Assembly: GCF_038396675.1 (NCBI RefSeq)
Contig: NC_088921.1
Location: 71,684,001-71,748,000 of the forward strand
Direction of reading: 5' to 3'
Length of the DNA stretch: 64,000 nt
From: Hydra vulgaris
Lineage: Eukaryota > Cnidaria > Hydrozoa > Anthoathecata > Hydridae
Below the pieces are notes generated by a model. That model did no database searches. It was not told where the DNA came from and worked only from the letters and a program-made list of their open reading frames with translations. Within the stretch, counting starts at the first letter, position 1. Each line of letters begins with the position of its first letter. Below are positions 1 to 61,148 of this stretch, one piece after another. The position numbers were made by a program, and so were the translations under genes.

Positions 1-1662
1 CGTTTCTCCGCGAATACTTGAAAAAGCAGCTTTAACAATATCTGTAAATTGTGGTAGTACTATTTTTTCACTGGTATAAACTCCGGGTATAGCAGGGTTT
101 TTAGTATCAACATGTTCATTCCATATTTTCCATAAAGATTGAATGCGAACGGCGTCGGTGAACACACGTGGAGTGTATTGGCTAAGAACAGTTTCTATAT
201 TAAAAACGTTGCCTAAATAGGCTATTGTGTTGGTGTTGATTAATATTTTTAATAAAAAAAACGCAATTTGCCACGGTACAAAGTGTTTCATTTTTGATTT
301 TGTGCTTTCTGCAATAGGTAATATGTTGTGAATATAAATATCTAAATCAACGCTGAGAATATAATCATCTGCAGTTAACGGTCTGGTATCCGAAAGTATG
401 TCGCCCTTAGATAATGAGGGGTTTTATAATTGGGTGTCAGCATGATATGAATAAACGGACGAACAAAAGTATCTTCAATACCGTTTAGAATAATCTGTCT
501 TTCGGGTGAAACAGCTGCTATTTCTGTTGCGCTTAAAAGCGGATGTTTTGCATATATTACAAAATTTTTACTAGTGTGAGTGTTTAAGGATAAATTGTAT
601 ATGTTGTCGTATAGAGATTTAGTAGTAACATAATTATATTGTAGTAATTTGGTAAAATCTTCTACAACGTAGGCACTTGCAGATGTTCTGTTTGAAAAAA
701 ACCAAAATAAGACAATCGTCTTTCTTGTACGGTTGAAGTTGAACTAGATCGAATAGGTTGTAAAAAAGAAGGGTTGCTTGCATATTCGTTTCTTTTATTA
801 TAATACCACAATAAGTTATAGTTGGTTCTATTAGCAAATGGGGTGGTATTGACGTTGAATAAATTTTGTTGTACATTGTTGTTTGCATCTAAACTAAACT
901 TTATCATGGGCATATCGACTACAGCTGTTTTGTATCTAAGTACAGTGGAAGGATCAAATAATAATTTTGGATTAAAATATTTTGTTGATGAAATTTTAGC
1001 ATCTTTGTTATAATAACTTGAAAAAAAGTCTGAAAAATAGAGCACTCTATTTAATTTTGAATTATAAAGTTCCAAGTTTCTAATAAAAAATCATCTTGTC
1101 CGCTATGGGGTGTCATAACACCAAAGAGTTTACCTCCACCTGTTGCATAAAAGATCCACATAAAACTCAAATGATCACTACTCATGTTTTCCATATCTAA
1201 TATGTCATAGCAAGGAAACGTGTCACCTGGTAAAGGGATATGATTGACGTACAAGACAACACTTATTGTAACAAGATAAAAATATTTTATGGGTTTTGTA
1301 GGATTAGCAATCATTTCGCTTTGAATATCGGATAACATTTTTTTTATAGCTGGTTTGGATTCCATTCTTAATCCGTAAGCGTTTTCAGAAAAGGATAGGC
1401 TTTCGTCTACTCGAGTTAAATTAGTAGGTACGTCCATACTGGCTAAATGTAAAATGGTGTTATTTTTAAATGTGGGTTTGTCAATATCGTAAGGAGTTAA
1501 GGGTAAACTAAAATCGTTCAAAACATTTTTGAACGATTTTAGTTTACTCAACAACAAAACACACACGCTAGCTTCATTTTTATTTTTAATTTCGCTAAAA
1601 TAATACGTGCTACAATCATATTTATTTACATCTAAAACATCGTCAAACGTTAAATTGTTCAT
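1..1662 (-). pseudogene. Probable virion structural protein, copy A, cut by the window edge
   Basis: A conserved element protein that I cannot assign to a named family. It begins at an ATG at 1662 whose codon overlaps the stop of the integrase gene (ATGA arrangement). The first open segment runs to 1051, a second frame covers 1075-662, and the homology to copy B (42,023-43,786) continues to base 1 in further frames, so there are at least two frameshifts. The protein is rich in Asn, Tyr and Phe without long basic or coiled regions, which fits a capsid-type beta protein. Its position between integrase and the hexon block also suggests a structural role. A penton or minor capsid identity is possible but not shown. 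A perfect hairpin lies inside it at 1503-1547. Confidence 0.55.
1503..1547. repeat. Perfect 21-bp hairpin inside a viral gene
   Basis: The arms 1503-1523 and 1527-1547 are perfectly complementary around a 3-base loop (cat). The homologous place in copy B (about 43,640-43,700) lacks the right arm and instead holds three tandem copies of a gcacgctaat-like unit. Confidence 0.9.
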
Positions 1663-2952: not shown

Positions 2953-2956
2953 TTTT

Positions 2957-12939: not shown

Positions 12940-12953
12940 TTTTTTTTATTAAT

Positions 12954-14201: not shown

Positions 14202-14214
14202 TTTTTATTATTTA

Positions 14215-14227
14215 CTGAAAAAAAAAC
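14215..14227 (-). promoter_or_regulatory. T-tract plus CAG before the helicase ATG
   Basis: Minus strand reads a T-run then CAG about 13 bases upstream of the ATG at 14201. The equivalent site in copy B (56,938-56,950) is preserved. Confidence 0.4.
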
Positions 14228-14309
14228 GTTTTTTATTTAGAATAAAAGTACATGCAAGTAAACTTAATAAAAAAAATAAATTTAACATTTTTGTTCGTAT
14301 TTTAAAAAT

Positions 14310-14519: not shown

Positions 14520-14529
14520 CTAAACAAAA

Positions 14530-14985
14530 TCAATATTCAGAATTAAAACATTTTTCACAATATATAAACGTACAACTCACTCCATCAGAATATCTATATT
14601 CATCACACTCTTCACATTCGTTTAAATAATGTTTACAATTTTCAATTTCTACACCTTTTTCTTTTACATGGTTTAATACATCTTCTTTAGATTTTAATTT
14701 AAAAAAATCATAAAAATATTCAAAATTTAAATTCAAATAAACATGATAATGTATTTTAATATATTGAAAGACCATCAAAATCAATATATGAGGTATTCTT
14801 TTCATTTCTTCATTGAAAAAGTCATTCCACTTGTAATTCAAATAATACCATTTACAATGATTGCATAAAATTTGTTTTGAAGTAATCGCATGCATTCGAA
14901 TATCTTCCAAAGTAGCTGGGTTATCTTGACTGAATTGGCATATTTTTTCCATCAAAAAATGCAAATTATTTTCTGTTAGTTGCAT
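14530..14985 (-). CDS. Cys-rich protein (unknown, intact)
   Basis: 151 residues from the ATG at 14985. A helical N-terminal half carries one CNHC motif (residues about 41-44). The C-terminal quarter has a cluster C..C, then FIYCEKCF near the end, consistent with a zinc-binding module. Only the last dozen codons survive in copy B (about 57,470-57,515). The upstream spacer carries the ATTACATAATAAAAA block preceded by T8-AG. It belongs to the run of small Cys-rich accessory genes at this end of the element. Confidence 0.5.
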   Translation of the reverse strand: MQLTENNLHFLMEKICQFSQDNPATLEDIRMHAITSKQILCNHCKWYYLNYKWNDFFNEEMKRIPHILILMVFQYIKIHYHVYLNLNFEYFYDFFKLKSKEDVLNHVKEKGVEIENCKHYLNECEECDEYRYSDGVSCTFIYCEKCFNSEY

Positions 14986-38153: not shown

Positions 38154-39857
38154 TTAAGACGATTTAAATTTGGTAGGAATATAGTTGACTTCAGTTTCGT
38201 CTCTTACCCCGCTTTCTACAACTGCAGCTGGATATTGCAAATACCTAACAAGTACACCTTTAAATTGTTCTGTAAATTGTACATTGATTTGAAACGAATT
38301 ATTTCCAGCAATTGTAGCAGGAGGTTTATTGTTGATAAAATTAAAATCGCTGGTGGTGTCTATGACTAAAGGTTCGGTAGTGTTAGCAGTACTAAAGTAT
38401 AATTTAGGATGTCTCAAAAAACTATCATCATCTCTATTATAAAAATCTGCAAAATTGTTATTGTTAAAAGTAGAGGGTGTATTTCCATTAGACCAGGAAG
38501 CGTAACTTCTCCAAATTGTCCATTGATCGTCTTGCTTTGTCAAATCGTATTCAGTAGTATCACCTGCTGAATTAACATATGTTCTTCTGTAATTATAAAG
38601 GGTGATTTTTTTAATAATGTTGCATGCCATTTCAACCGGTGTAAAACAACCTTTGCTTAAATGATCACTTTCTTTTTTTGAATTAACAAAAAATATAATG
38701 CTGTGAGGCACAAGATCTGCTCTTTTTATACTTCCCAAATTGACAGTGACTTCTGTAATATTTTCTACATTGGTGACAACTTGTTCGTAGTGAGCAATAC
38801 GTAGTAAAGTATACATTTCGTCTTTTTTACTGTTGAGATATAAAGATTTTTCCAAGGGTAAACTGGGTTTGAGTCTATACGTATTGCAATATATCATTGG
38901 GTTTTTAAAAGCCACTCCCACATTAGCAAGCGCTGTTATGTCAGCGTCTACAATAGGTCTTACTCTTTCTAATAGTTGATTCATATCATTTTCAATATAA
39001 AGTTCCAATCTAATTGGTTTATATTTTCCAAAATGTTCTTTCATTTGAAAAACTTCACATAATAAACTCAAAGGTACTCTAAATTTACAACCTTTTTCTC
39101 CAGTCATGAAAGCATTATATTTATTTCTTTGTGCTGTTTGATAACCAGCAGGTGCCACAGTGGCAGGTGCTGTTGCATTAAGAGGTCCAATGAGTCCAAT
39201 AGGGTCTGCAGCTTGTATAAGCGCTTTGGTTTCAGCATAACCAATAGGGTTTGTTGCATTTTCAGTTTCTTCGGTTAAACCTAAATTAGGATTAATCATC
39301 AATTCTCCAAAAGATTTCATATAACTTTTTTTAATCAGCATTGCTCTAAAACGATCATAAGAACGATTAATGATAGCGTTGTTTGCATAAGTAGTATTAT
39401 TTTTTGAATAATTGGGATAAAATTTGACAGTTTTAAATAATGCATAAATAAAGTTGTTGCAAAGACACACTTTTTTTGCTAAATCATCGTCTGTTGTAGG
39501 TGTAAATCTTGTTTGCGTGCTCAAATTTTTATAAAGAAATAAATCAAAATCCAAATACCAATCTTGTGGATATGTCCATTCGTTAAGTACAGTCGTAAAA
39601 GTAATTAAATTAGCCATGTCAGAAGTTAGATCGTAAGAAAATTTTTGATTATTAACAGCAATGACTTCATCTTGAGCTTGAGCTGTTTGAAAACCAGGAT
39701 ATTTTTCATTTAATATAGCTTTATGTTCTGCGCTAATATTACAACTTGTTGCTTCTTTCAATAAACGATTTTCGTTGTCGGCTTGTGCCAAAACATCTTC
39801 AATAGTAACATGACCGTTTGTATTGGGTGTATAACGATTGCCGTCACCATCTCTCAT
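38154..39857 (-). CDS. Hexon-type major capsid protein (double jelly roll), open
   Basis: 567 residues from the ATG at 39857. Length, composition (Asn/Thr/Phe/Tyr rich, few Cys) and the order before the core genes fit the Polinton/adintovirus hexon. Recognisable stretches include YCNTYRLKPSLPLEKSLYLN near the middle and a beta-rich C-terminus with QINVQFTEQFKGVLVRYLQ. An upstream in-frame ATG at 39878 is followed by TGA at codon 3 and may be the ancestral start, so seven residues could have been lost. It is the best-preserved large gene of copy B. Assignment to the double-jelly-roll family is by context and general pattern. Confidence 0.7.
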   Translation of the reverse strand: MRDGDGNRYTPNTNGHVTIEDVLAQADNENRLLKEATSCNISAEHKAILNEKYPGFQTAQAQDEVIAVNNQKFSYDLTSDMANLITFTTVLNEWTYPQDWYLDFDLFLYKNLSTQTRFTPTTDDDLAKKVCLCNNFIYALFKTVKFYPNYSKNNTTYANNAIINRSYDRFRAMLIKKSYMKSFGELMINPNLGLTEETENATNPIGYAETKALIQAADPIGLIGPLNATAPATVAPAGYQTAQRNKYNAFMTGEKGCKFRVPLSLLCEVFQMKEHFGKYKPIRLELYIENDMNQLLERVRPIVDADITALANVGVAFKNPMIYCNTYRLKPSLPLEKSLYLNSKKDEMYTLLRIAHYEQVVTNVENITEVTVNLGSIKRADLVPHSIIFFVNSKKESDHLSKGCFTPVEMACNIIKKITLYNYRRTYVNSAGDTTEYDLTKQDDQWTIWRSYASWSNGNTPSTFNNNNFADFYNRDDDSFLRHPKLYFSTANTTEPLVIDTTSDFNFINNKPPATIAGNNSFQINVQFTEQFKGVLVRYLQYPAAVVESGVRDETEVNYIPTKFKSS

Positions 39858-39914
39858 ATATTTAGCTAATCAACCCATTTTTTTTAAAAAAAGAAAAAAT
39901 AACTTTTTTTCTAA

Positions 39915-42022: not shown

Positions 42023-43786
42023 TTAAAGTATAACGATAATATTTTCTTTTGGATGTGAGAGGAAAATAATTTCATAAAAACTTGTTAATAATTCTGTAGG
42101 TTCTACGCCTAAATCAGCTGCTGTAATATAGATAAGTTTTGTACCAAATCCAGTTGGAAAAGGCAGTTGTAAAAGCAGCCTTGATAATATCTACAAATTG
42201 TGGTAGTACTAATTTTTCATTGGTATAAACTCCAGGATAAAGTGAGTTTTTAGTGTCGACATAATCGTTCCAAATTTTCCATAAAGATTGAATACGAAGG
42301 TTGACATTATAAGGTGTGTTGAAATCGTTAAGATTAGTTTTTACGTTATATAGGTTGCCTTCAAAGGGTTTTGTGTTGGTGTTGGTTATTATTTTTAATA
42401 AAAAGAAAGCAATTTGCCACGGCACAATGTGTTTCATTTTTGATTTTGTGCTTTCTGCAATAGGTAAAAAAGTATTAGGATACACATCTAGATCAACACT
42501 AAAAATATTATTGTCGTCGGTTAAATTTGTTCCAGTTAAAGCCGGATTTATATAATTGGGTGAGAGCATAATATGAATAAAAGGTCGAACAAAGGTTTCT
42601 TCTATACCGTTTAGAATAGTTTGTCTTTCGGGTGAAATAGCTGCTATTTGTGCGGCGGTTAAAAGCGGATGTTTTGCATAAATTAAATAATTTTTACAAG
42701 TGTTAGTATTTAATGATAATTTGAATATGTTGTCTTATAGAGAATTAGTAGTAATATAATCAAATTGTAATAATTTTGTAAAATCTTCTAGAACGTACAC
42801 ATTACCACGTGTTCTATTTGAAAAAAAAACGAAATAAGATAAACCTCTTTTTTGTAAAGGCGAGATCACGCTTAAGGTAGATCGAATAGGTTGTAAAAAA
42901 GAAGGATTTCTTGTGTATTCGTTTCTTTTTTTATAATACCATAATAAATTATAATTGGTCCTATTACTAAATGGGGAAGTATTAAAGTTAAATAAATTTT
43001 GTTGAACATTGTTGTTGCTATCTAAACTAAACTTTATCATGGGTAAATCGATTACAGCCGTTTTGTATTGAAGCTCAGTTAAAGGATCAAATAAATATTT
43101 TAGGTTAAAATATTTTGTTGTTGAAATTTTACCATCTTTGTTATAATAACTTAAAAAAAAGTCTGAAAAATATAAAACTCTATTTAATTTAGAATTATAA
43201 AGTTCTAAGTTTCTAACAAAAGAATCATCTTGATAGGCGGTGGGTGACATAACGCCAAAGAGTTTACCTCCACCTGACGCATTAAAGGTCCACATATAAC
43301 TCAAATGAATGGCGTTCATGTTTTCCATATCTAATTTATCATAGCAAGGAAACGTGTCACCTGGTAAGGGTATATGATTGGTGTACAAGACAACATTTTT
43401 AGTAACAAGATAAAAATATTTTATGGGTCTTGTAGGATTGCTAATCATATCGTTTTGAATATCTGATAACATTTTTTTTATAGCAGGTTTGGATTCCATT
43501 CTTAATTTGTAATTGTTTTTAGAAAACGATAGGTTTTCGTCTACTCAAGTTAAATTAGTAGGAACATCCATACTCGCTAAATGTAGAATGGTATTATTTT
43601 TAAATGTAGGTTTGTCGATATCGTTGGGAGTTAACGGTAAACTAAAGTCATTCAAGACATTATAATGCACGCTAATGCACGCTAATGCACGCTAGCTTCA
43701 TTTTTATTTTTAATTTCGCTAAAATAATAAGTAGTACAATCATATTTATTTACATCTAAAACATCGTCAAATGTTAAATTGGTCAT
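42023..43786 (-). pseudogene. Probable virion structural protein, copy B
   Basis: Homologue of 1-1662. ATG at 43786, overlapping the integrase stop. The best open parts are 43499-42735 and 42569-42114; the frame then continues in another phase to 42023. An inserted gcacgctaat triplication near 43,670-43,692 disrupts the N-terminal part. The full length would be near 580 residues. It separates integrase from the hexon block in both copies. Confidence 0.5.
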
Positions 43787-43857
43787 TTTTTCTTTTTTTT
43801 TTTTTTTTCTTGCAGTCTTTTCTTCAAAGGTTTTAAAAAAGTATTAATACATTTTTT

Positions 43858-43970
43858 ATAGTTTTTATAGTAAATGTCTTTTATAGTAAAGTCTTTTATA
43901 GTAAATGTCTTTTATAGTAAAGTTTTTTAGTAAATGTCTTTTATAGTAAAGTTTTTATAGTAAATGTCTT
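43858..43970. repeat. Minisatellite expansion in the integrase C-terminus
   Basis: About four alternating units of ATGTCTTTTATAGTAAAG type, where copy A has a single unit at about 1,725-1,750. Confidence 0.8.
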
Positions 43971-44840
43971 TATCTTCTTCGTTAATAGGTAATAAATCTT
44001 CTCGTTTCATTTTGAAAGTCGTATTTAAATTGCCTTCTACTCCCACTTTATAAATATAAACGGGTAAATAACCTTCTACTGAAAGTTTAGAGCGCTTAGA
44101 GATTTTGATAATATTAACTTTTTGGTAGTGTCCTAATAGGGTTGATTACGAGTGGTCGATTTGCTAAAGGTGTCTTTGGGATCTATTTTATATTTTTTCA
44201 AGTAACATTCAGTTCCAACGGATAGAGGTTTATAAATTTTAAATTTTTCGTTTTTGTATTCTTTTTCTACTCGATGTAACATGTTGGAAGAAAAATGAAG
44301 ACCTCCTCTTTTGTCGTCGCGGTTTTGATCGACTAAACGAAGAGCTTTACCTTTGGCGTCGTCAGCATACCAATCTTCAGGAGCTATTCCACTCGTCACT
44401 TTTTCTTTTTCGATGAGTTTTTGTTCCATGTCCTCGATATAAAAACTCCAATTGTTTTTTTGAAGTTCGCCTTGTTTTCTTAATTTTTGATAAAGTTTTT
44501 TTAAACGTCCTATTGCCGATTCGGCCAAGTAAGCTTTTCCATAATTTTTAGAATTAAAATGAACAATGTTTTATTCATAACACCATTCTTCCATTTTGTT
44601 GTTAAAAAAATCTCCACCTTGATCGGTTTGCAAGTAAATAAATGTTATATCGTCTCTTTTAATGTCTTCAAAAATATGCTTAAAACTGCTAAGCACTTTA
44701 TCGGCAGTTTTTTACTGGTGACTCTCAAAGACTATTTTTTAGATACTCCATCTAACACAACTAAACAAAATTCAGGTCGATGAGGAGCAAAATTTAAATT
44801 AAAACTGTTCATGTCGGCGAAATCAGTTTGAAAATATTGT

Positions 44841-44905
44841 CGAGGTCTATCGTATGAATATTGATGCGTTTCGTAAACTTATCAATATTCATACGATAGA
44901 CCTCG
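44841..44905. repeat. Perfect 25-bp hairpin, copy B only
   Basis: Arms 44841-44865 and 44881-44905 are exact complements around a 15-base spacer. Copy A has the left arm sequence once, followed by unrelated ancestral coding sequence. Confidence 0.92.
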
Positions 44906-45203
44906 TATACTATTCGTAGGCGCTTGTTTTTTAACGTTGACATCCGTTGTTTTTTTAAAAAGTAGAGTGACTTGTGACCAAGCTGTTATGAGACCGTTCC
45001 ATTTGGCATAAATGTAACTTTCTAAAAGCGCTCTTAATTGTTCATAAAATTTTAAATCAGTTGGATTTTTTTTTAAAGTGTCAAGTTGAAGCAAAACTTT
45101 TTTAATTTTGGGAACGTCTGTTAAAGCAAATAAACGACTCGATAATTTGGTCAGTTGATCTTCTACAAGGTTGTCAATAGCGTCTCTCAAGACATTATCC
45201 ATT

Positions 45204-47355
45204 TTAATAGTCGGAATATTTTGTTATTGAAGCTTTTTTTTTTCTTTCTTCTGGATTTGTGGATGACGACCTAGTAGTTACTTTTTTTGCTCTTAATTCT
45301 ATACGACCACTTCTAGTTAACATTGGGGTTTCAGTACTATCACTAGCACTTGTTGGTTCAACTGTAGTTGTTTCAGGTAAAGCAGTAGCACCTAATAATT
45401 CGGGAGCACTTTCAGGTGTTTCACTAAGTTCGGCTTTAGTTGTTTCAGTAGGTTCTTCTTCTTTTTTAGTTTCTATTGGTGCTAAATAGGGATCGGATGC
45501 TCGTGTTTGTGGTTCTTTTTTGGGTGTAGGAATTTCTAATAAGGAAGACCTTGTTAACGGATGAGCGAATAAATTTTTCATTTTAAAATTGGTAAGTAGT
45601 TTTAAAGCGTTGGCAAAATTTTCAATATTATTAGAACCCATTTCAAAACATTTTTTATAAGATATTAAAAGTGAATTTAAACGAGCAGGTTGAAAATTAT
45701 ACATTGCACCCATTATCATCAACATTTCGAGTAAACTTTTTTCTTTGATTGAATTTTCTGTGCTGTAAAATTGATTTGAATTTGATTTAATATGTTGCAA
45801 TAATCGCAACGCTCCTTCTTTAGCACAAGTTTGTTCTACATCTTCTTTTAATAGGACTACATCTGTTACATCTCTAAAAGGTAAAGAAGGTACAGGATTG
45901 AAAAAAGTTTTAAATGTTAAATAGAGCATGGTTTCTCCGATGGTTCTGTTAGCTAATGCGTTTTCGTCATAGTTATTTAACATTCCAACATAAATATCTT
46001 TATTAGGTAGTAAATAACTGTTCACTTGAATGTATTCTCTCAAAATTTCAAATTTGAAACCTCGAAACATTTTTCCATTTTGTATACATCTTTGTTGAAT
46101 AATGTCTTTGGTTTCTGATAGTATTTCAAAAGCTCTCTTTCCACCGAAACTTTTATCGGTTATGGATTCGCTTTCTATAAAACTAGAAGTCATAACAGTG
46201 TAAGGATCTTGAGCTAGAGCGCTAGCATATATACCTTCGGATGTTAATTTAGTTTCGTTTCGAAAGGGTATGTTGTATTTTTTAATAAAACGCCACAATT
46301 TCGCAAAAGTAAGATGTCTTATTTGATAATAATCGGCAGCTATTCTCATGCTAGCTACAGAGTGAGAAGAGGTTAGTAAAGTTAAAAATTCGTTAGCATA
46401 AAAAGAATATTGTTTTGGATCATTAACTTTTTGAAAGGCAAAGTTGGTGACATGCTTAATAATACTAGCTATGGATTCTTCTACATCTACGACATTGGCT
46501 TGATATAAAATATAAATTTTTAAATTGTTCAGAGTGGCTTTTTCGTTTCTCGGTTTGTAAACACGTGAAGAAATTTGATGAGATCCAAACCGATAATTGA
46601 CTTGATTTTTACACATGTCGACGAGATGTTTAGGTAAGTTGGGAATTTTTTTTACAGATTCGTTTTTATAAGGCTGTTTTAGAATTTCGCTCGAATTGGC
46701 TGTTTCGTGAAAAGTTAAAAATTTATTAAGAGGTGTCAAAGCATAAAATTTTTTTATGAGTCGATGGAATAGTATTTAAAGTACTAGAACGCGGTAAAGT
46801 GTTTAATGTTGATTGAATAGAGGAAGGAGGCGTAGAACTAAGAGAGCTGTGTTGAATAGGAAATCTTTTTAAATTTCTCATCATTCTTAAAGATTCGCTT
46901 ATGTTTCTTTGATCAATTTGATCATTTAATTTGCTTTGCTTATTCAAATTTAAAAGGGTTTTAAAAGCGTAAGAATCTCCTCCCACGTTGAGATATGTTT
47001 TCCATTTTTCTTGATCGCTGATTAAACTTGTAGCTATATCGCTGTTAAGCATAGTATCAAGAGGTAAAAAAGCATTTAAATTTTGTTGAAAGCTTACTTC
47101 CCTAGCGATTTGATTTTCGAGATTAATGGCATCTGCATAATTAAAAGAAGAGGGTAAATCATATCTTAGGATAAGCTGAGACAAATCCGTTCTGTTTGTT
47201 TCTTCAGATTCTAGGTTAACTTCTGTGTTTTCTTGTTCATTAGGGTTAGGGTTAGGGTTAGGGTCAGGGTTAGGGATAGAGTAAGGGTTAACCCTGAGTT
47301 AGGGTTAGGGTTAGGGGTAACCCTGAGACTCGTGATAAGGTCTATATCTATTCAT
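45204..47355 (-). pseudogene. Conserved element protein of unknown role, copy B
   Basis: Homologue of 2957-4859. ATG at 47355. The first ~35 codons are largely replaced by telomeric repeat (47,240-47,327). The segment 47184-46726 and the long segment 46739-45204 (511 codons) are open but in different frames. The long segment contains the part deleted in copy A, including CAKEGALRLLQHI. The C-terminus is a Pro/Glu/Thr-rich linker followed by a basic tail (RSGRIELRAKK), which could be a nuclear localisation signal. No known domain recognised. Confidence 0.5.
47240..47327. repeat. Interstitial telomeric repeat 1
   Basis: TTAGGG units with variants (TCAGGG, TAAGGG), including short inverted pieces ending CCCTGAG. 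It replaces roughly 80 bp of coding sequence present in copy A near 4,750-4,830. Confidence 0.95.
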
Positions 47356-48035
47356 GTTTCATAAAAATCCAAATTATTTTGAAAATACAATTCTTATTGA
47401 CAATAATTAACCTTAAACTGCTGTCTTAATAAATCGATTACAGTTTTTGTAGGTTGTATAGTGTCGAATGAGATTAATTTATTAGCATAATAATTTAAAA
47501 TTTCGTGATAAAGTTTAAAACGAGTAGAGTTGAAATATTCTTTTAAAACGTCGTAATTGTTATAAAAAAGTCTGATATAGCTTCATTTTTATCTTTCATT
47601 TTTTCTTTTTTCATGATGACTTTTCCGTTTTCGTTAAATTTTGGATACGTATATAAATGTTCTTTGACAAAGAGTTTAATTTCTATACAATCGTATTCTT
47701 GAAAAGCGTTTTTTATTTGATGTCTTTCGTAATCTGATAAAAATTCGCATTTTTACAGCATTAAAAGGTGTTAAAATTTCTTTCATCCATATTTTAATTT
47801 CGTTTTCATCACTGTCTTTTCTTCTATTCATTTTGGGGATAAAAATTTGTCCTCGAACAGCCAACTTTTGTCTCATGGCTTGACGTTTACTCGCTTTGTT
47901 TGAAGGATTGCATAATTCGTAATCGTTTTGTAAAATTCGTAAAAATTCTTCGCTTTCCCAATCATTTAGAATTAGAACTGGGTCCACCGTCTGAAGATTC
48001 GTCTGAAGATTTGTCTGAAGATTCGCACAATCCAT
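47352..48035 (-). pseudogene. Conserved element protein overlapping the ATPase, copy B
   Basis: Homologue of 4856-5547, ATG at 48035. The first 119 codons are open to 47676; after a frameshift near 47,755 the remaining conserved part continues to 47,352 with another break near 47,575. The N-terminus carries three LQTN repeats from the 12-bp tandem unit. Confidence 0.5.
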
Positions 48036-49220
48036 ATCGTTTATGTCTTTTAATTTCTTCGAATAATTGTGTTGCTCTTTCGCTTTCACTCCGCTTTCTT
48101 TTCTTTAGCGGATTTTATTTTTCCTTATTTATATCGTTTTCATCTTCCTCGTTGGGTTTATTCTCCTTCTCTTGATTATAGTTGTTGTGATGAGATTTGA
48201 GATAATAATGATTTTTTAATTGGATAGCTTTGACATAGGGAAAGGATTAAAAACTAACAATTTTTTTGTTAACGCTCATGTCTTTATAATCAAAGTCCAA
48301 TTTGCCTTGAGCGTCTACTGGAACAAATACTTTTTGTTCTTTACTCGTAATCTGCGTTCTCAAGCGTGCTACCGAAGAGTTTCTTTTAAATAAAGCCAAA
48401 TGTCCGTGTTGATTAGAAGTTTCTTTATTTAACAAATCGCTTATAACGTGATGATGCATTTTGCCAGTAGAAGGAAAATTATTTTTAAATATTTTTTCAA
48501 TCTCGCTGTTGTTATCAAAAGAAATTGTACATTTGTAATGAGTCACTAAATTGTTCCAACATTGACTGGCTTTAGAAGGTACAGAATAAAATATGATAAT
48601 GGTACCTACTCCGTGATGAGAATCGCTAGAACATGCGCTAGTATATTGTTGACTTTTTAAGCAAAAAGCACTAATATCATCGAATAAAAGTATTGTTTTT
48701 AATAGTCGATAATCGCTATTTTGAATACCGTATTTATCTTTGGAAAAACCAATGGCTCTCTGTATTACTGAATCTAAATTTTCTGGACTGTTAACTGTTA
48801 TAATATGATAAGCTTCTAAATTATTTTTAGAAGATTCGATAATATTTTTCCATGTTTTGTGTTGACAATCGCTAGGTTCTCTCATTTGTATCACAAATAA
48901 CATTTCGGCATCAGGAAATTTTCCACAATGTAATAAATCTCTAGCCATAGTTGACTTTCCGCTGTTTGTAGGTCCTGTAATAATTGTATTTTCAGGATAT
49001 ACATCTTGAGTAGGTTTAAAATATTAAATTTAACTTGTGAATTGTTTTCTTCGTCTTTGAGTTCAGTTTCTTTTGATGTTCCTTTTAAATAAAAATCATG
49101 AAAATCTTTTTCGTTTAATATTTCGGTTATAGATCTACCCTCTTTTTTTTCTAATGGTATCTCTGCAGGTTGTTCCACAGTTTCGAGTTTTTATTCAAGA
49201 GGTTCTTCTTCTTTTTCCTA
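47962..49220 (-). pseudogene. FtsK/HerA-type packaging ATPase, copy B
   Basis: The ATG of copy A is not conserved here, a TAA replaces Gln near 49,190, and a frameshift near 49,015-49,020 puts the Walker A region out of frame. The segment 48948-48247 is open and keeps LLFDDISAF (Walker B). The Ser/Asp-rich tail to 47962 has a further stop near 48,115. Identity with copy A is high throughout, with different lesions. Confidence 0.85.
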
Positions 49221-49286
49221 GATTTTTTATATTAATAAAAAAAAACAATTTTTTTTAATTATATCTTTTTTTTTACCAAAAAAAAT

Positions 49287-49605
49287 TTACAAAAAACGGT
49301 CTAAAATAATTTTTTTAATGTCCATTTTTGGTATATTATCCAATACGTAAAGTAATTGTTCTTTTGTCCCATTACGATTCGATATATTTTTAACATTTGA
49401 AAACTTTTTTCTTCGATATTTATTTTATAATCGTAAGGGTTAGGGTTAGGGTTAGGTCACGGTTAGGGTTAGGTCAGGGTTAGGGTTAGGGTCAGGGTTA
49501 GGGTTCAGGGTTAGGTGTTTCTCGGGGTTTTAAATATCTTTCACAAGGTTTCCGATTGATCGCCAATCGTCTTACTAATTCTGTAAGTAATATAGTGTCC
49601 TCTAT
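49287..49605 (-). pseudogene. Death-domain protein, copy B, destroyed by telomeric repeat
   Basis: The aligned start codon is ATA at about 49,603-49,605. The first helices survive (LLTELVRRL), then the telomeric patch 49,434-49,515 replaces the helix 3 region, and the C-terminal helices follow with a frameshift. Comparison with 7057-6809 makes the identity clear. Confidence 0.7.
49434..49515. repeat. Interstitial telomeric repeat 2
   Basis: TTAGGG repeats with GTCAGGG and GTCACGG variants, inside the death-domain gene. Confidence 0.95.
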
Positions 49606-49609
49606 TAAG

Positions 49610-49951
49610 TTATGATTCGTTTTTTTTCTCTAAAAGACAAGAACAATTATGTATTCTATTAAAATCTTCACAATGCTCACAATCTTCTTCATAACAGCCT
49701 AGATGACATACAAAACTCAAACATTCAAGTAAACATTCTGTACAACAACTTAAAAATGCTTCAGGGATTAACTCGCGTCCGTTTAGAGTGATTAGAATTA
49801 AACAAGAAGTAAAAAATCCTTTTTTATCGTGATAATATTGAACTTCGTTTTCTGTATTTTCTACTAAATAAAAATTCTTTAAGCCAACTTCTTTCAACTT
49901 TTTTTCGAGTTGTAGGGTTGTTAATTTTTGATCAAAAAAACAAAACTTTAT
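49610..49951 (-). pseudogene. Small Cys-rich protein, copy B, start codon lost
   Basis: The frame is open for about 113 codons, but the position of the copy A ATG is ATA here (49949-49951). The C-terminal half shows CCTECLLEC, CHLGCYEEDCEHCED and CSC spacings typical of a zinc-binding module. It shows the complete protein that is frameshifted in copy A. Confidence 0.55.
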
Positions 49952-49974
49952 TTTTTTTATTGACAAAAAAAATT

Positions 49975-52900
49975 TTACAAATTTATATTGTTTTTAATAT
50001 TGTATAATAAAGGTATAATCAAGGTCTAATCAAAACTTTTCGATTAAACATCGCCATTGTATGATAACGCTCTGAATCTTTTATAATATATTTTTCAATT
50101 TGAAGTAAATTTTGAATGTGTTCATCGCTACAAAATTTTTCAATATCAGGTAAAACTTTTAAATTGGCTTCTCGTATCGGTTCCAAAAGATAATGATCTC
50201 GAATTTCAGTCATGACTCCGTCATCAAAATCATAATTTTTTTGTGTAAATCTTTTTAAAAAATCAATAGTGTGCGTTTTTATTTTAACTTGTTTGTAATT
50301 GACACTCATTCTATTTTGTTCGATAGGTTGGTTTTCTTTTACCACTGGAAAAGGAAGTGGTCTACACAATCTTTTTGCAGCAAAGGTATCAAAGCCGTTA
50401 ACATAATTTGAAAATAAGAGTTTAGAATTGGGTACTCCTTTAGCTCTATTTTTGTAATAGTTCTTTTTCTTCGTCTCCGTTGACGCTGTGAACACTATAA
50501 CATTTAGGTCCCATAGCAAAAGCTTGAACAATATAATAGGGAGGTATTTCGTTTTGAAAATGATCCGTTTCTTTGGCGTAAAGAGTGGAATAAAAAGGGT
50601 GAGTTTTTTTATAGTTGGATTAATCCATCCAACGATTGCCAAATTTTGAAAAATAAATCCATTCTTCTACTTTTTCGCGAAACGTTGAAGAAAGCATTTT
50701 TTTTTTTTTTGCGTAATGAAAAAACAACCAGAACCAGTATCTGTTACTACCAAATGTTTTTCAGCTCCATGATTTCTTAATACTTGTCCCAATTCCCAAC
50801 TAAAACGTCCTACGTTGAGTTTTGCATAAGATAAAATTTGTGAAGGAACAATACGTAAAGATTTATTAATGAGTGTGCATTTTTCGCTGGTTGTTAAAAT
50901 GAGAGCATTTTTATGATCTTTTGATTTTAAGAGTTTTAAGACGTCTTTCATTTCATGATGATTGTTTTCATAGTGAAATAAAATACTTTTGGTTTTGACA
51001 TTGCTCATCAAACTGAAAAGAATTTCTTTAAAATATTCGTTGTAATTAAAATCGATAGTGTCGTAATAATCTAAACACACTTTTTTTTCAAAAACGTCCG
51101 ATTTATATCTTTCAGGTTCAACACCAATAAACATGACTCCATTATATAATAAATTTTGAAAATGAAAAGGAAGTAACAACTTAACATTTTCATTCGTTTG
51201 ACCTTCTTGAATTAAAACATGTCAAATATTTTGAAAATTTTCAATAATGTTTAAAAATGCTTTTTCTTTGTGATTAATAAAAGAAGTATTTAGTTTTTGC
51301 GCAATTTGTTGACTTAATGTTCCATAATGTCCGTTAGTTTGCAATTTGCAAAAAGCATCGACTACCTTGTCACCCTTTTTAATGGCTTCTTTTCTTTTTT
51401 TCCATATTTCTTTTACCATTTTTTGAGCTAAAGGATAACGCCATAAAGGAAGTACTTTGTAAATGTTTTCAACAACACATCCACAGCATGTAGTCAACCA
51501 TATTAAAGTGTCTAAAAATTCACAAGTTTCATGCGAACTTAATTTCATGACCAGTTTAATAGTTTTGTCTTTTTCTATACCATAGGTTCCATTGTTTTTG
51601 AGATAACGTCTAGATGCAATTTCAGTTGGAGAATAATCTTTTAAGGATATAACTTCTTTTTGTACCATGGGCGAAAAACCTCTTACTTGATCTTGATACT
51701 CTGGTTTCATAGTAATTTGACAATGAACTAAAGCACTAGTTGAGAAACCGTTAAAATTAACGCTATGGTATTTTCGAATCACATCGTCTAAAGTAATTAA
51801 TGTGAAAAGGTAAAGGTTTTAATTGAGCTCCTCCATATTGACCATTTTCGTCCATAAAAATTAAACAAACTCTTAATGCGCTGTTTAATTTGAGTTCTTT
51901 TATTTTAGGATCAAAGCAATCTGTATCAATGGCGAATTTTTGCGTACCGTTGGTTGACATGCCGCCTCGAATACTCTTTTCAATCATTTTTTGATGTTCG
52001 TCGGTCGGAGGAAATTGAACAGGAATTAAACTGATGGCAGAATTTAATTTACTTGTATAGCTAAAAATACTAACATGATTGAGAATATGAAATTTTGTAA
52101 ATTCAAATGTTGTTTCGTCAAAGTCAATCATAACAGAACCTTATATGACCGCGTCAAGCACAGTATATATACCTAATAAGGATTTTAAAGTTTTTAAATT
52201 TATAAGGTTCGATAATTTTTGAACACCTTCATAAGCTTCTTTGATTTTTTTAATTTCTTCTTGTAGGTTTTTAGACTTCATTAAATCGGTTTGAGCAAAT
52301 AATTTAATAGGAGGTAATGTTTTATATTCAATGTTTAATAGTTCGTCTGTTATTTGCGAGTAAGGAAATAATGTTTTTTTATGAAAAACAGTTTTTAAAC
52401 TCTTGATTGTCGGTTAAATGAATAATTTCAGGATGAAAAGGTCGTAAATAATGCAACATGGTGTTGACAATTTGATTTTGAGCTTTTTGAGATAACATAC
52501 TACTGGCTTGTTCTAAAGAACAGTTTTAAATTTTCAAGCTGTCCACAATTTTAATATGTTTACCAATGCAAATAATATTAACTTTGCTCACATTTTTAGA
52601 TATAACAAAAACATCTTCCATGTTGCTATATTTTATAAAAGCGTTAAAAGGTGTTGTTTCAGATTCGGCCAAATGACCGTATAACGGAATATCAAAAAAA
52701 TTTTTTAAACCTTCTACAATCATAATACGGTTATCAAAAGAAGCGTTATGAGCAAAAATAGGAAAAGACAAATGTTGACTATATCTGCCTAAATTTTTGT
52801 TGCAATAATCATAAGCTAATCCATACACTTGTCGTGAAAAATGATCGTGATCAATAACTAGATAATCTTCAAAAGCGTTGAGAAAAAAATTGCATTTATT

Positions 52901-54855
52901 TAAAACTTTTTCTCTACTTTTTTAATCTTAAATAAAATCGGATAAACTAAATTTTTTTTCATATTGACTATTAAAAGAAACCAACATGCAATGATACCAT
53001 AATTCGTAGACGGGTTGCGTATATTTTCTCATAAGAAACATAAAATTGAGGTTATCTGTATTTTGACCGCCTATTTCGTTGATACATTTTTTAATCAAAA
53101 TCTGTCGTTGAAAGATTTTGATTAAAAAGTAGGGATCATCTAACAAGTCGATATATTCTTGATCAAAGTAGTTTTCGAGTTGATGATCGCTCATGATAAG
53201 GGAAGCCAATTGTTTCATATAATCTACAAGTTCTCCACTGGTTATTCTCACATAATCACTCAACAAACCGTTAGTGGCAGGTAGGTATTCAAATTTTTCC
53301 CACCATCTACAACAAATGTAACACAAACTTGATACTTGAAATAAATCTTGTTTTATTTTTTCCGCATCATTGTTGATTAAATAATATTAAACGTTACAAG
53401 GTAACATGAACAATTCTAAACGTCCTACTCTTTGAAACATGATGTTAACAACTTGAACTCGATTGTCGTTGTAAATACGAAATTCGTTATCATTTAATCT
53501 TTCTATTTCTTGGGGAGTCATGCGAGAAAATTTATTTTTATAAGTATCAGATTGACGTATTTTATCTGCAGGATATCTGCAAATAGAACATAAAGGATTT
53601 TCTTCTTGCCATATTAAATTTCTTTCTTCAGATGATATATTTAAATTTTGAAAACGCGGTAAACATATTTCATATGCAAATCGAACCAAAGTATCTGCTA
53701 AAGCTATTAAATTGTAAACTCGTAATTCCATTTTTAAATTTTCATTATTTTCACGAGTCGAATTTAACTTTTCCCACATTATACGTCTGTGTGTTTTGTG
53801 AAGTAAAGAAACTCCTGGTTGAAAATAGGCAGGTAGACAGGTTAAAGGATTTCTTACTAAACTTTCAATAGTATTTTCGAAATAAAAAATCCATTGAGTG
53901 ATCACGTGACTTTGTTCATCCAAACCAAAACATTCTCTTGCTAATGTTTCATGAATGCATTGAATCACGATATAATGACAATGATAACTGAACTCAGATA
54001 AAGGTTTGACTTTGGAAGTGGCATTTTCTTCAGACTTTGTAATACTCGTTTCACAATTAAATGTCATTAAAAAAAGAAATAAGTTTCTACTTGTACACAT
54101 AAACGAATTTTGTGGACGATAGTGAGTAATGCAATCGCCATATGTAAATTTGACCGGTTTATAATAACCTTCACATTCGTGTGTCTCTGTAGTAAATTTT
54201 TGTCCACATTCTGAACATTAAAAAAGAACACGTGACTTGTTAGTAGAAAAATGTACAGTAGAAAATTTTTCATTCAACATGCTTATAGCATGAAAAGAAT
54301 TGTTTTTTTGAAAAATACAAATTTTTATAGTGTTGTTTGTTTTTTTCCGTTGATTGGCTTTATTTCTTTCCTCGTCGTTAATAAAAACTCTTTGAGAATC
54401 TTGATCGTATTTGGTAATGTTTGCACTTTCGTAGACCACTTTTAATAATTCTTTAAGACTACTTTTATATTGCGACTTTAATTTAGAATGCAATAAACGA
54501 ATTTTGGTATTACTTTTGTTAACGGCAAAAATTTTAATGTTAATACGATCAAAAGTATTTTCATAAGCAAAACAGTGACACAAATCAATCAAAGTTTGAA
54601 ACGACATACTTTTAGATTTTTCTTTTAAATTTTGTAAAACGTTTTTCCAAACCAGAATATTTTGCTCATCTTGATCTTCAAAAAGGAGTTGTAAAATATT
54701 TTCTTCCGAATATAAATCAGTCGCATTTTTTCCAACACTTTTTTATTCAACTCTTTAATGGTGCTCACATTCCATTGGCGAATCAACAAAGAGATTAGAA
54801 AAGCAAAACAAAAACATAATCCTGGTTCAAACAAAATACTATAATCTAAAAACAT
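49975..54855 (-). pseudogene. Family B DNA polymerase, copy B
   Basis: Homologue of 7417-12149, ATG at 54855. Open pieces include 54100-53387 (with FNCETSI exonuclease motif), 52131-51763 (motif A DENGQYGG), 51782-51222 (motif B KLQTNGHYG) and 51179-50667. The motif C region reads DTGS rather than DTDS near 50,740, so a catalytic Asp is lost. About eight frameshifts or stops. An extra stretch of about 160 bp relative to copy A is present near 54,300-54,440. Confidence 0.88.
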
Positions 54856-55679
54856 TTTCCTTTTTGTTCATAAGAGAGTTTAGTATAAGATTGACTTTTT
54901 AGCGAATTTTGCTATTGTGTTATAGAATGAGGTTTATACCATTCACCAAACCATTCGTCTACATCAATTTCTTTGCTCCTTTTTTGTTGACTTTTATATG
55001 AAATTGATTTTTCGTTTTTTTTGTAATATGATTTCTTTTCTTTGCTACTCTTTTGTTGTTTTTTTATCAAAAGTATTTTTTTATTTTTTTCGTAATATGC
55101 TTTGTAGCGTTTTTTCTTTTTTTGAATTTCTTCATCTGTCATGGACATTTTTCTTTTAAAACCTGACAATTCAAAATCTCGTAATTTCATCATTTATCTT
55201 TCTGTTAAATTGGATAGAGTTTTAATTTTAATATTACATAATCGTATTATCTTCCATCCGCTATCGTTTTCCAAAACATTAAAAACAGCTCGTACATTGG
55301 CATCTTGAATAAAACGTAAATAAGTCGGTCCTTCTAAAGGTTTTATAAAATAAACAGGCGAGTTGTAACAACGTTTCATTATTTTACAATATCCATTTTC
55401 AATAGATTTGCAACACAAAGTAACAATATTATAACCAGTTATGAAATTTTGAAACAAGTCAGCAAAATGAATACTGTTTTTCTTTTGTGTTTCAAACCCT
55501 TCCATTGTTTTATGTTCTACGTGATAAACAATTTCATCAGGACTTTGAGTTTCAGAACAAAAGCGTGATTCTTCCACAATATCTTCATCTTTTTAATCAT
55601 CTTTGATGTAAAAAAAATGTTCAGTGTAAATAGTGTTATTACTAAATTTAGTTTCCTCAGTTTGATATTCAAATTTCAT
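54846..55679 (-). pseudogene. Basic-tailed protein upstream of PolB, copy B
   Basis: Homologue of 12133-12939, ATG at 55679. In-frame stops near 55,594 and at 55,194 and a frame change near 54,910 break it. The Lys-rich segment is retained (KKKKRYKAYYEKNKK). The end overlaps the PolB start at 54855. Confidence 0.55.
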
Positions 55680-55697
55680 TTTTTATCTAAAAAAAAA

Positions 55698-56926
55698 TTA
55701 CATGTATTTTATATAAAATTCCAAAACATCAGAATCAACAGTGATACTTTTAAATATTTTTCGTAATTCTATTTTATTATTAATAATTATAAAAATATCA
55801 TTAATTTTACAAACTCGTGATAAAGAAACATAATAACGACTATTAATATAAGCCTTTGAATTAAATTGAACAACGGCTTTATTCATTGTACTTCCTTGAG
55901 CTTTATGAACAGTAAAAGAAAAAGCTAATTTTAAAGGTAAACCAAATCTTGAGCCTACAACAGCATGAGAGCAATCTAAAATATCTTCTTTGACACATTC
56001 AATTTTGACTTTTTTATTCATATTAACCCAAACTGCATTATTTTCTATTAAAAAGACTGTATCAATAGTACCATTGCACAAACCTTCTTCCACATTAATA
56101 TTTCTTACAAGCATAACAATAGCACCTATTTTGAGATAAACAGCTGCTGGAATCTGAAACGAACATTGTATGTTTTGATTTTTAATAACATCTTTAGCAT
56201 AAAACCAATACCCTTCTTGTTTTATAGTCTCCATTTTATTATTATTATAAACATCGACTTCCATATTTCTAAAAAATAATCTTGTAAATTTAGTGTTTAA
56301 ATTTTCATCTTTTTCAAAACAACGCGTCATAAAATAATCAATAGTTGGTCTGAAACTTGTCCAAAACGTATTTCATTTAAAGCTCCAAAAAATTGCGCAT
56401 CTTCTTTTTGTTTAAAGCATTCAGTTAAAACCAAAACTTCCGTCATGTTTTGTTGCCATATTTTAGATTTAAAAACAAATTTTCCTGTGACAGGTGGTAA
56501 TTGAAAAAATTCACCACAAGCAATAACTTGTATACCACCAAATAATTCATCATAACATTGTTTTATTTCACAAGCAATTAAATGTAATAAATCAAATGTT
56601 TGAGCATTAATCATTGAAATTTCATCAATAATTGAAACATCAGTTTCTAACCACCTTTTTTTAATGTCTGGATGCATGTGACGTTTATAATAATCTAAAC
56701 TTTTAACACCAGTTTCTATACCAGCAAAAGCGTGTATAGTGACACCATTTAACAAATGAGCTGCTTTTCCTGTACTCGCAGTAATATGTATTATTTTATA
56801 AATTTGTCTACTTTGAGCAATTTCTTTGACAATATAACTTTTTCCACAACCAGCACCACCAGTAATAAAAAAATTGATTCCATCATCAAGCCATTGAAGC
56901 GCTTTTTGTTGTTGCAAAGATAACAT
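55698..56926 (-). pseudogene. PIF1-like helicase, copy B, one frameshift
   Basis: ATG at 56926. The first 200 codons carry GGAGCGKS (Walker A), TASTGKAA, IIDEISMI (motif II) and GEFFQLPPV (motif III, usually GD). A single-base deletion near 56,347 shifts into the second open part, which has FTVHKAQGSTM and YYVSLSRV, the PIF1 C-terminal signatures. Otherwise complete, about 410 codons. The preceding T-tract plus CAG at 56,938-56,950 is conserved with copy A. Confidence 0.9.
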
Positions 56927-57089
56927 TTTATTTTTTACTGAAAAAAAAAATATGACAAAACATGTTTTTATTCTGAATAAAAGTACTTGTAAGTACACTT
57001 GATAAAATATATCAAAAAAATAAGTTTAAAACCCAAATTCATTTGTAGTTTAAACAAAAAGTCACTGTCATTCTCATTCAACAAAAATT

Positions 57090-57218
57090 TCAAAGATAAT
57101 TTTTATCGTTATTTAAAGTTTCATTTTCTAAATGATATTTTTGATTATTTTCCTCATCCAAAGAGTTCATATTTAATATTTTCACCAACATTTTTTTATT
57201 TTGATTTATAGTATTCAT
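57090..57218 (-). pseudogene. Decayed paralogue of the CARD-like gene
   Basis: A 42-codon frame from an ATG at 57218 whose first residues (MN..NQ.KKML) mirror those of the gene at 14519 and 57448. It then diverges into Asn/Glu/Lys-rich sequence. Probably a truncated tandem duplicate. Confidence 0.35.
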
Positions 57219-57229
57219 TTAAAAAAAAT

Positions 57230-57448
57230 TTATTTTGAATATAAATATATAATAGCATATTTTTCAAAAAACATCATAAAAATAATGTTCTGGTCGACAA
57301 TTTTTTCCACTATAGATAATAAATCGTCTTGTTCATTAACAATCGACAAAAACTTTAAAGCCATCATTTCATCTTCTGTTAATAGGTTTTTTGTTCACTT
57401 AATAATTTGAGCATTTTTTTTATTATTATTGTTTCTTATTTTATTCAT
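57230..57448 (-). pseudogene. CARD-like small protein, copy B, frameshifted
   Basis: Homologue of 14310-14519, start ATG at 57448 directly after T9-AG. Two one-base frameshifts near 57,415 and 57,390 break the first half; the C-terminal half (NIIFMMFFEKYAIIYL) is conserved. Confidence 0.5.
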
Positions 57449-57469
57449 CTAAAAAAAAATTACATATAA

Positions 57470-57515
57470 TACACTTCATCAAAACATTTTTCACAATATA
57501 TAAAAAAAAATTTTT
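57470..57515 (-). pseudogene. Last codons of a Cys-rich gene
   Basis: FIYCEKCF and the following few residues match the C-terminus of the protein at 14530-14985. Everything upstream is replaced by sequence containing the hairpin at 57,553-57,624. Confidence 0.55.
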
Positions 57516-59494: not shown

Positions 59495-59911
59495 TTAGAA
59501 AAGCAATACATTATCATGAAAATTAATACTTATTAACATTGTTCTTTTTATCAAATTTCTAAAATAATTTCTCAAACATCTTCTACAATTTAAAATTTTT
59601 TTATCGTTTGGTGTTATGATAATACCATTTTTTTGAAAATTATAAAACAAATTGACAGATTTATTGCACTCTGTAAACATTTTCATAAGAAGTGACAAAT
59701 ATATGTTGTGTATTTCGATATCCTCCCAAACATAAGATAATAAACCACTATCTATAACACAAACATCATTTTTGATTTCTTTTATTTTTTCATCATAGAT
59801 TTCGATCAATTGAGCTGCATCAACCATTTGTAAAAACTTTAACACCTTTTGAAACGTATTATACATAACGTTGTTTTCTTTTTCCACCAAATCCCAAATA
59901 TTTATTTCCAT
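59495..59911 (-). CDS. Unknown 138-residue helical protein (intact)
   Basis: Open from the ATG at 59911, preceded by T6-AG. All-helical pattern with acidic and hydrophobic residues, one CRRC near the C-terminus. A death-fold member cannot be excluded but no diagnostic motif is present. Adjacent to the MATH-domain gene. Confidence 0.45.
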   Translation of the reverse strand: MEINIWDLVEKENNVMYNTFQKVLKFLQMVDAAQLIEIYDEKIKEIKNDVCVIDSGLLSYVWEDIEIHNIYLSLLMKMFTECNKSVNLFYNFQKNGIIITPNDKKILNCRRCLRNYFRNLIKRTMLISINFHDNVLLF

Positions 59912-60004: not shown

Positions 60005-60565
60005 CTAAAAAAATTTTTTAATTTTACATTTAATGTACAATTTATTTTCAATTAAATAATCATTATTGTCTGCTTTTTTTATAAAGTTGCAATATCCATA
60101 ACCAACATTTTCTCCATCTCTAGCTGGTCGTTGAAAAGACACATTATTCTCAGTAATAAAACTTTTTTTCATTTGTTTACCATTAGGTCCAGACAGTTTA
60201 AATGTAATGACGTGATTTAAAAAAGGCCATTTTAATAAAGCATCATAAGGTGAGGATCTCATTATAATATACAATCCAATTTCTTCTTCCTTATGGCTAT
60301 CACATTTCATATTGATATTCAGTTTCATTAAAAATTGATAATTTTTATAATAAAAGGGAACACTATAATAAACTTTGCCTTCATTTTTTAATTTCTCCTT
60401 AAAATTTTCAAAAATCCATATCTTACAACCATGTATATTATTATTGTGCATTTCTTCTAAAATGGTTAGTCGAAAATCTAAATTCATTATTTTCTCATTA
60501 TAAAATCCATTGAATAAAATACTTGGATTGTCAGTGTAAATGGTAAATGAAGGTTTGTCAGCCAT
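60005..60565 (-). CDS. TRAF/MATH-domain protein (intact)
   Basis: 186 residues from the ATG at 60565 (MADKPSF). From about residue 50 the chain follows a MATH (TRAF-C) domain: KIWIFENFKEKL, YYSVPFYYKNYQFLMKLNIN, then GLYIIMRSSPYDALLKWPF, VITFKLSGPNG, SFQRPARDGENVGYGYCNF and a final YLIENKLYIKCKI strand. The DALLKWPF block is especially TRAF-like. No RING, zinc fingers or coiled coil precede it, so it could bind receptor tails or partners without the signalling part (inference: decoy of TRAF signalling). It sits between dUTPase and the helical gene at 59,911. A longer frame upstream overlaps the dUTPase end and is unlikely to be used. Confidence 0.82.
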   Translation of the reverse strand: MADKPSFTIYTDNPSILFNGFYNEKIMNLDFRLTILEEMHNNNIHGCKIWIFENFKEKLKNEGKVYYSVPFYYKNYQFLMKLNINMKCDSHKEEEIGLYIIMRSSPYDALLKWPFLNHVITFKLSGPNGKQMKKSFITENNVSFQRPARDGENVGYGYCNFIKKADNNDYLIENKLYIKCKIKKFF

Positions 60566-60626: not shown

Positions 60627-61148
60627 TTATTTTCCAGTGGTACCAAAACCACCCTTTCTTTCTACGTCTTTAATCATTGACATTTTCACTTGACGACAAT
60701 AACACCCATCAATTTATATTACATTTTTTATAGCTTTAAACATTTTCACAAATCCCATCTGAGCAACAGCGTCTCCATGTTTAATAATATAGTTTTCTTT
60801 GGAAAGATTCATCAATAGGACTTTAATTTCATCTTTATAATCAGCGTCTATTATTCCTGGAGAATTTAACACTACAACACCATATTTGTAAGCTATACCT
60901 GATTTTGAATATACATGTCCTGCTAAATTTGTATCTATTTTGTCGATATAAACTCCAGTACTTACTAAATTACGCTGTTGTGGTTGAAGTATATAATCCT
61001 TTGTGCTCCTTAAATCAAAACAAGCACTCTCTTTTGTTTCATAAAAAGACCATTCTTGAATATATCTAATTACGAGTCTTTTAAACTCTTTTACTTCATA
61101 AAGAGACCATTGATCTTGTTTGCGATGTGCATCTCTTATTTTAATCAT
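60627..61148 (-). pseudogene. dUTPase, single in-frame stop before motif V
   Basis: Hydrolyses dUTP to dUMP, keeping uracil out of viral DNA. ATG at 61148. Motif I ACFDLRS, motif II YSKSGIAYK, motif III GIIDADYKDEI and motif IV HGDAVAQMGF are present in order. The frame meets TAA at 60714-60716, yet the same frame downstream carries motif V, GGFGTTGK, ending at 60627. The N-terminus has an unusual extension of about 40 residues containing a repeated WSLYE/WSFYE unit. With the stop the enzyme lacks the glycine-rich lid. Confidence 0.88.

Follow-up and report, generated by a model that had tools for sequence, protein, structure and literature searches.

A TRAF-C/MATH gene and a second TRAF-like gene in a virus-like element family of Hydra

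Does a gene for a stand-alone TRAF-C/MATH domain, the domain of the TNF receptor-associated factors (TRAFs), belong to a virus-like element of the Hydra genome, and what would such an element use it for? The question is raised by a stretch of 64,000 nucleotides of Hydra vulgaris DNA, hereafter the window (G000:C2:71684001-71748000), in which one MATH gene was seen. This gene is called vTRAF-A here and a second TRAF-like gene vTRAF-B, both names being coined in this analysis. The finding bears on the open question of how Polintons are to be seen, as transposons or as viruses in conflict with their hosts. The searches of Hydra's own DNA covered one genome, a 911.5-Mb assembly of 15 contigs, and the genome-wide family counts for vTRAF-A, dUTPase, PIF1 and vTRAF-B were made among the best 150 matches listed per search.

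vTRAF-A as a repeated and constrained gene

vTRAF-A is a multi-copy gene at a fixed place in a virus-like element, beside dUTPase and PIF1. The genome search gave 583 candidates, and all 150 that were scored matched, fragments included, which sets the copy number at 150 at least. The copies fetched included the top 80 of the ranked list and 20 odd or distant frames picked by hand from the lower ranks, and 90 of these 100 had a dUTPase upstream on the same strand, mostly at a spacing of 120-210 bp. Among the matches listed, 95 of the 150 vTRAF-A sites paired with 95 of the 150 dUTPase sites. A listed PIF1 was present 1.4-9.1 kb downstream on the same strand at 79 of the 150 listed vTRAF-A matches, and no other arrangement was detected within 10 kb; in 200 shifted controls the same pairing occurred 0.18 times on average and at most twice.

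An earlier reading made from the sequence alone (the sequence-only reading) had placed the gene next to dUTPase in an endogenous virus, and had described its product as a 186-residue TRAF-C/MATH protein with neither RING nor zinc fingers. The placement was borne out by the fetched copies, all of them in the genome of a cnidarian, Hydra, and the description of the protein also held. Two TRAF-C/MATH profiles matched above their cut-offs (PF21355, 68 bits, cut-off 27.4; PF22486, 65.8 bits, cut-off 32), and no RING or zinc finger profile matched. All 28 solved-structure sequences that matched at E<=0.01 were TRAFs, the identity to the TRAF structures listed being 22-26%. The best-scoring subgroups were TRAF2, TRAF5 and TRAF3, but the subgroup is not fixed, since a Notothenia TRAF4 chain (7ypc) reached 2.8e-10, with other TRAF4 chains near 1e-5.

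The AlphaFold model constructed from 15 sequences was a TRAF-C beta-sandwich, aligned over residues 45..184 of 186. It superseded a first model from 5 sequences, which had a predicted local distance difference test (pLDDT) value of 56.9. In the predicted fold only a helix of residues 21-44 stands in for the TRAF-N coiled coil. Its residues K25, L29 and R32 were unvarying across 14 aligned sequences, and the helix is possibly a short trimerisation stub.

In the protein databases vTRAF-A matched two entries from Hydra and three TRAF proteins that look cellular, and a mixed query added more of the latter. The Hydra entries (P0001 and P0002), named 'TNF receptor-associated factor 2-like' and '1-like', can be members of the viral family. 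No relatives were detected in IMG/VR, with single-sequence or alignment queries, nor among phage records. Four viral structures matched at E<=0.001, two of them iridovirus TRAFs (1.1e-9 and 5.8e-9).

Purifying selection has acted on vTRAF-A over the history of the family. An essentially open frame was found in 33 of the 100 fetched copies, a few of them with a shifted C-terminus. Among these 33 (all 528 pairs) the pairwise ratio of nonsynonymous to synonymous substitutions (dN/dS) was 0.80 at dS<0.05 and then fell steadily, being 0.23 at dS 0.5-0.8, 0.19 at 0.8-1.2 and 0.14 above 1.2 (two pairs). When stops were skipped, 88 copies (all 3828 pairs) showed a drop from 1.12 to 0.17-0.27 with rising dS. 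The pairs of such comparisons are non-independent. A codon model of 30 of the 33 open copies (the three with shifted C-termini dropped; 179 of 246 columns) gave an omega of 0.202 with a log-likelihood of -4147.1, against -4286.6 for the best fit with omega 1, which is about 139 units worse. The simple reading would be that vTRAF-A is constrained during element replication and decays near-neutrally once inserted.

For dUTPase, dN/dS went from 1.11 to 0.37 with rising dS, with values of 0.58-0.59 in between (820 of 946 pairs used, the rest sharing fewer than 120 codons or being saturated). At dS>0.1 its values lay at 0.37-0.59, and dUTPase is apparently under weaker constraint than the MATH gene.

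vTRAF-B, a TRAF-like gene in opposite orientation

vTRAF-B, reported here as new, is a TRAF-like gene for a protein of about 358 aa in which no RING was detected. Many of the elements that carry vTRAF-A have it as well, in a constant position and in opposite orientation. It was found by a genome search with a cellular TRAF (P0004), which also gave exons looking like those of host TRAFs. In this search 98 of the 150 scored matches had a listed vTRAF-A or dUTPase at a distance of 25 kb or less, compared with 1.7 on average and 7 at most in 200 shifted controls. Among these 98, 89 lay upstream in opposite orientation, at a distance of 8-20 kb with 12.7 kb as the median, and nine were arranged differently. 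A listed vTRAF-B was present at 46 of the 95 dUTPase loci with a listed vTRAF-A and at 33 of the 55 loci without one.

Four vTRAF-B copies with open frames (L109-L112) encode 346-359 amino acids from the start codon, and in each of them three CxxC..H..C units are followed by a long coil-like stretch and then by MATH. The three units were recognised by eye in these copies and in a fifth (L116). L109 matched PF21355 at 2.6e-19, and its coil and MATH aligned with TRAF3 at 8.9e-12. Its residues 5-44 gave a single, weak zinc-finger match in the PDB (0.0079). No RING profile match was found in L109 nor in the pieces of L108, the copy that by position is the vTRAF-B of the window's element (G000:C2:71755000-71757200, opposite strand, 7-9.2 kb past the window end, with the match at 8.05 kb). 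L108 is broken, its fingers and coil lying in one frame and its MATH in another; intact vTRAF-B copies are found elsewhere. Among the four open copies dN/dS was 0.25-0.47.

A distant vTRAF-B family was represented by six matches of equal score, five of them with 332-aa frames, away from the listed dUTPase and vTRAF-A markers. The one fetched copy, L116 (G000:C2:11992950-11994250), has the vTRAF-B architecture with finger cysteines and histidines in place. The distant family is perhaps a separate, younger element lineage.

Possible role and rival explanations

The reading preferred here, with a probability of roughly one half, is that a Polinton-like virus or transposon lineage which colonised Hydra carries vTRAF-A as an accessory gene, whose product would act, together with vTRAF-B, on host TRAF signalling. 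The interference would take place inside host TRAF complexes, vTRAF-B being the more canonical part: with its coil and part of the presumed receptor groove it would become part of the trimers of host TRAFs, or compete with them, and bring no ubiquitin-ligase activity. The partner of vTRAF-A would be vTRAF-B, an adaptor or a host TRAF, in place of the usual receptor motif. Overall, TNF receptor (TNFR), NF-kB and death signalling would be damped or redirected during replication. A RING-less TRAF could join host trimers because TRAF1 and TRAF2 form heterotrimers, as stated in the available portion of PMC6262405.

Two fixed TRAF-like genes, constrained over the family history and apparently drifting after insertion, are the expected remains of a virus with host-interaction genes. 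A tentative and stronger version is that Hydra Polintons might encode a two-part RING-less TRAF system rewiring TNFR/TRAF signalling, with vTRAF-B as a trimerising scaffold and vTRAF-A either partnering it or acting as a reader in its own right. If this is true, the 'transposons' are viruses that carry conserved genes dedicated to immune modulation, and some of the TRAFs annotated in Hydra are viral. The role is testable in Hydra, whose genome holds many TRAF-type matches.

The sequence-only reading had instead proposed a decoy, in which vTRAF-A trimers would titrate receptors or adaptors that carry the usual PxQxS/T TRAF-binding motifs. Such a role would suit a protein that consists of TRAF-C and a short helix and lacks a RING. 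Seven TRAF2 positions (393, 395, 399, 447, 453, 467 and 468), which we take to be the receptor-peptide contacts, were compared; a literature search for the list found nothing. Three of them are retained in the vTRAF-A copies (D399 in 31/34, F447 in 34/34 and G468 in 32/34), but R/K393, Y/F395, S453 and S467 occur in none of the 34, the replacements being N, T or S at 393, N or H at 395, N at 453 (32/34) and Y at 467 (34/34). Among six Hydra MATH sequences regarded as those of the host, R/K393 occurs in three, Y/F395 in five, S453 in three, S467 in none and G468 in all six. Position 467 is uninformative on the viral proteins, apart from the fixed Y, since S467 is missing also from the host-like sequences; this absence speaks slightly in favour of the decoy. 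Furthermore, with a helix of about 24 residues the formation of trimers is doubtful. On the assumed contact list, a simple receptor decoy appears rather unlikely. A groove that is altered and yet conserved suggests that the partner is a specific one, different from the usual receptor motif. In vTRAF-B, K393 and Y395 were present in 5/5 and D399 in 0/5 sequences.

Most TRAFs have an N-terminal RING, TRAF1 being a RING-less animal TRAF. In comparison to TRAF1, vTRAF-A has neither a finger nor a long coil, and its groove positions are changed.

The tree was constructed of nine vTRAF-A rows, five vTRAF-B rows and 13 cellular or host-like sequences. The vTRAF-A group (support 100/99) and the vTRAF-B group (100/98) were both separate from the 13 cellular or host-like sequences.

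Several points weigh against the preferred reading. The neighbourhood counts are drawn from the best matches listed, and the vTRAF-B copies L109-L112 were chosen for their long listed frames. Of four sampled dUTPase loci without a listed vTRAF-A, one had a broken MATH and three had none within 1.5 kb downstream; because of these three, vTRAF-A is regarded as accessory, dispensable and missing in some sub-lineages. The zf-TRAF profile did not match vTRAF-B L109. The assumed contacts are not all typical of Hydra TRAFs, as the host-like counts at 467 (0/6) and 453 (3/6) show. In the tree, vTRAF-A and vTRAF-B were joined at 93/82, not starred, at a point where long branches meet, and grouping with the Hydra host-like sequences was not rejected (approximately unbiased test, p-AU 0.158 for vTRAF-A and 0.212 for vTRAF-B). 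No host donor is named, since both viral groups are on long branches and the host grouping was not rejected. Also the altered vTRAF-A groove may be equally compatible with a role unrelated to host TRAFs.

In one such role the MATH proteins would serve the virus internally, as scaffolds or as substrate adaptors, and have no contact with host immunity. This is judged unlikely, as the solved sequences matching vTRAF-A are all TRAFs and vTRAF-B has the finger-coil-MATH order of a TRAF.

The sequence-only reading had also stressed that the gene is intact among broken neighbours. The frame is indeed open, and this, together with the database name 'TNF receptor-associated factor 2-like', could be taken to mean that the window copy has been domesticated by Hydra as a TRAF-like host gene. 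However, a third of the fetched copies are open anyway, dN/dS is near 1 among close copies, and the private changes of the window copy in comparison to its nearest relative, 10 nonsynonymous and 2 synonymous, are few and compatible with drift. Because of these changes the open frame of the window copy is no evidence of host use, nor proof that Hydra keeps the gene, and domestication is disfavoured as very improbable. The earlier observation itself was confirmed, and its interpretation was supported in part. That one element captured a host exon by chance, without a function, has hardly any likelihood and is likewise disfavoured: giant elements do acquire genes, and planarian Burro retrotransposons carry MATH_TRAF_C (in the accessible part of PMC6431247), but the number of matches, the fixed neighbours and the omega of 0.20 stand against it.

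Viral TRAFs are already known from fish iridoviruses, and none was found for Polintons in the literature searched. The vTRAF of Megalocytivirus, ORF111L of infectious spleen and kidney necrosis virus (ISKNV), is a TRAF-domain protein encoded by an animal DNA virus; PMC3352826 describes it as a TRADD-binding inducer of caspase-8 apoptosis, built of RING, coiled coil and MATH. The combination of RING, coiled coil and MATH in one protein was found neither in vTRAF-A, with no RING or finger, nor in vTRAF-B, which has a coil and finger-like units and in which no RING was detected. The virus group and the host are different as well. The gypsy-like Burro elements of planarians resemble the Hydra elements in being mobile and in having MATH_TRAF_C together with a dUTPase-like domain, but in the accessible part of PMC6431247 they are retrotransposons with a large polyprotein, in one species with MATH in an upstream accessory open reading frame (ORF), and no PIF1 helicase is named there.

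The Hydra Polintons (P1-HM and relatives) have the same host genus as the vTRAF elements and, if the Polinton label holds, belong to the same element class; P1-HM is named in a figure legend of PMC11071308 and a capsid protein of a Hydra magnipapillata Polinton is reported in PMC4028283, as far as the available portions of both extend. Within these portions, 'TRAF' and 'MATH' are absent from PMC11071308, and PMC4028283 has no 'MATH' and a single 'traf' match, in the reference list. In the available text of PMC10120064 the sole 'traf' match is 'trafficking' in a reference. No report of TRAF/MATH genes in Polintons, Mavericks or adintoviruses was found in the literature searched.

As a separate observation, zf-TRAF matches were dense on G000:C8 at ~19-58 Mb and on C15 at ~34.7-35.9 Mb (among 50 listed, all above cut-off, most on C8), which suggests a TRAF-type gene expansion in Hydra.

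The Polinton label and the gene map of the window

The element had been called a Polinton-type virus in the sequence-only reading. The label is kept with qualification, as it rests on PIF1, dUTPase, copy number and two matches below cut-off. An rve integrase match was detected in the sister element at 2010-2576 (2.7e-6, 28 bits, cut-off 32.6), with no match at 44133-44570, and a Pox_A32-like ATPase match in the sister ORF 5474-6340 (4.2e-4, 20.3 bits, cut-off 22.8). On the other side, no polymerase profile matched the candidate frames tried; a DTD-like motif was seen by eye. A capsid candidate of 571 aa (38154-39869) gave no informative match to a profile or a PDB entry. In IMG/VR no relatives were found for one polymerase and one capsid candidate, nor did these two have an informative PDB match. 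Terminal inverted repeats were not seen in a repeat list filled by one low-complexity stretch, and the element continues past the window end.

The window includes two related element stretches, 18-14568 and 42167-57504, which were collinear in a self-comparison with blastn. Five of the collinear blocks had 82-88% identity and one, of 282 columns, 76%. The collinearity ends short of the MATH-gene region of the second stretch. The features are given in Table 1.

Table 1. Features of the vTRAF-A element in the window.
Feature	Position	Strand	Basis or remark
vTRAF-A, stand-alone TRAF-C/MATH protein, 186 aa	60008..60565	-	stop codon 60005-60007
N-terminal helix of vTRAF-A, residues 21-44, where the TRAF-N coiled coil would end	60434..60505	-	structure model
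TRAF-C (MATH) beta-sandwich of vTRAF-A, residues 45-186 (predicted)	60008..60433	-	model aligned over 45..184/186 by VIA-align
dUTPase, 144 aa, 151 bp upstream of vTRAF-A	60714..61148	-	PF00692 8.1e-21
dUTPase motif V codons, outside the open dUTPase frame	60627..60680	-	read from sequence
PIF1 helicase, N-terminal piece	56327..56998	-	PF05970 7.5e-34
PIF1 helicase, C-terminal piece, different frame	55698..56330	-	PF21530 1.9e-11
Element part common to the second, cut-off element at 18-14568	42167..57504	.	self-blastn
Candidate packaging ATPase (P-loop)	48247..49023	-	sister ORF 5474-6340 resembles Pox_A32, below cut-off
Next gene after vTRAF-A, function unassigned	59495..59911	-	ORF, no Pfam match

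The dUTPase frame of the window copy stops before motif V, the codons of which follow just downstream; in a relative (L093) motif V is in frame. At the same relative, a frame resembling by eye the unassigned gene of the window also follows vTRAF-A. In the sub-lineages without vTRAF-A (L102-L104) small unassigned genes are situated right behind dUTPase, and some of them look mutually related by eye (compare 59495-59911 of the window). The sister element includes an Endonuclease VII-like match at window positions 9997-11157 (PF02945, 1.5e-5); homing endonuclease insertions in Polinton polymerases are reported in the available part of PMC11071308. A dUTPase (G000:C2:71617838+) and a PIF1 (C2:71632651+) were found on the same strand ~50-66 kb before the window, where another element of the same family may be located.
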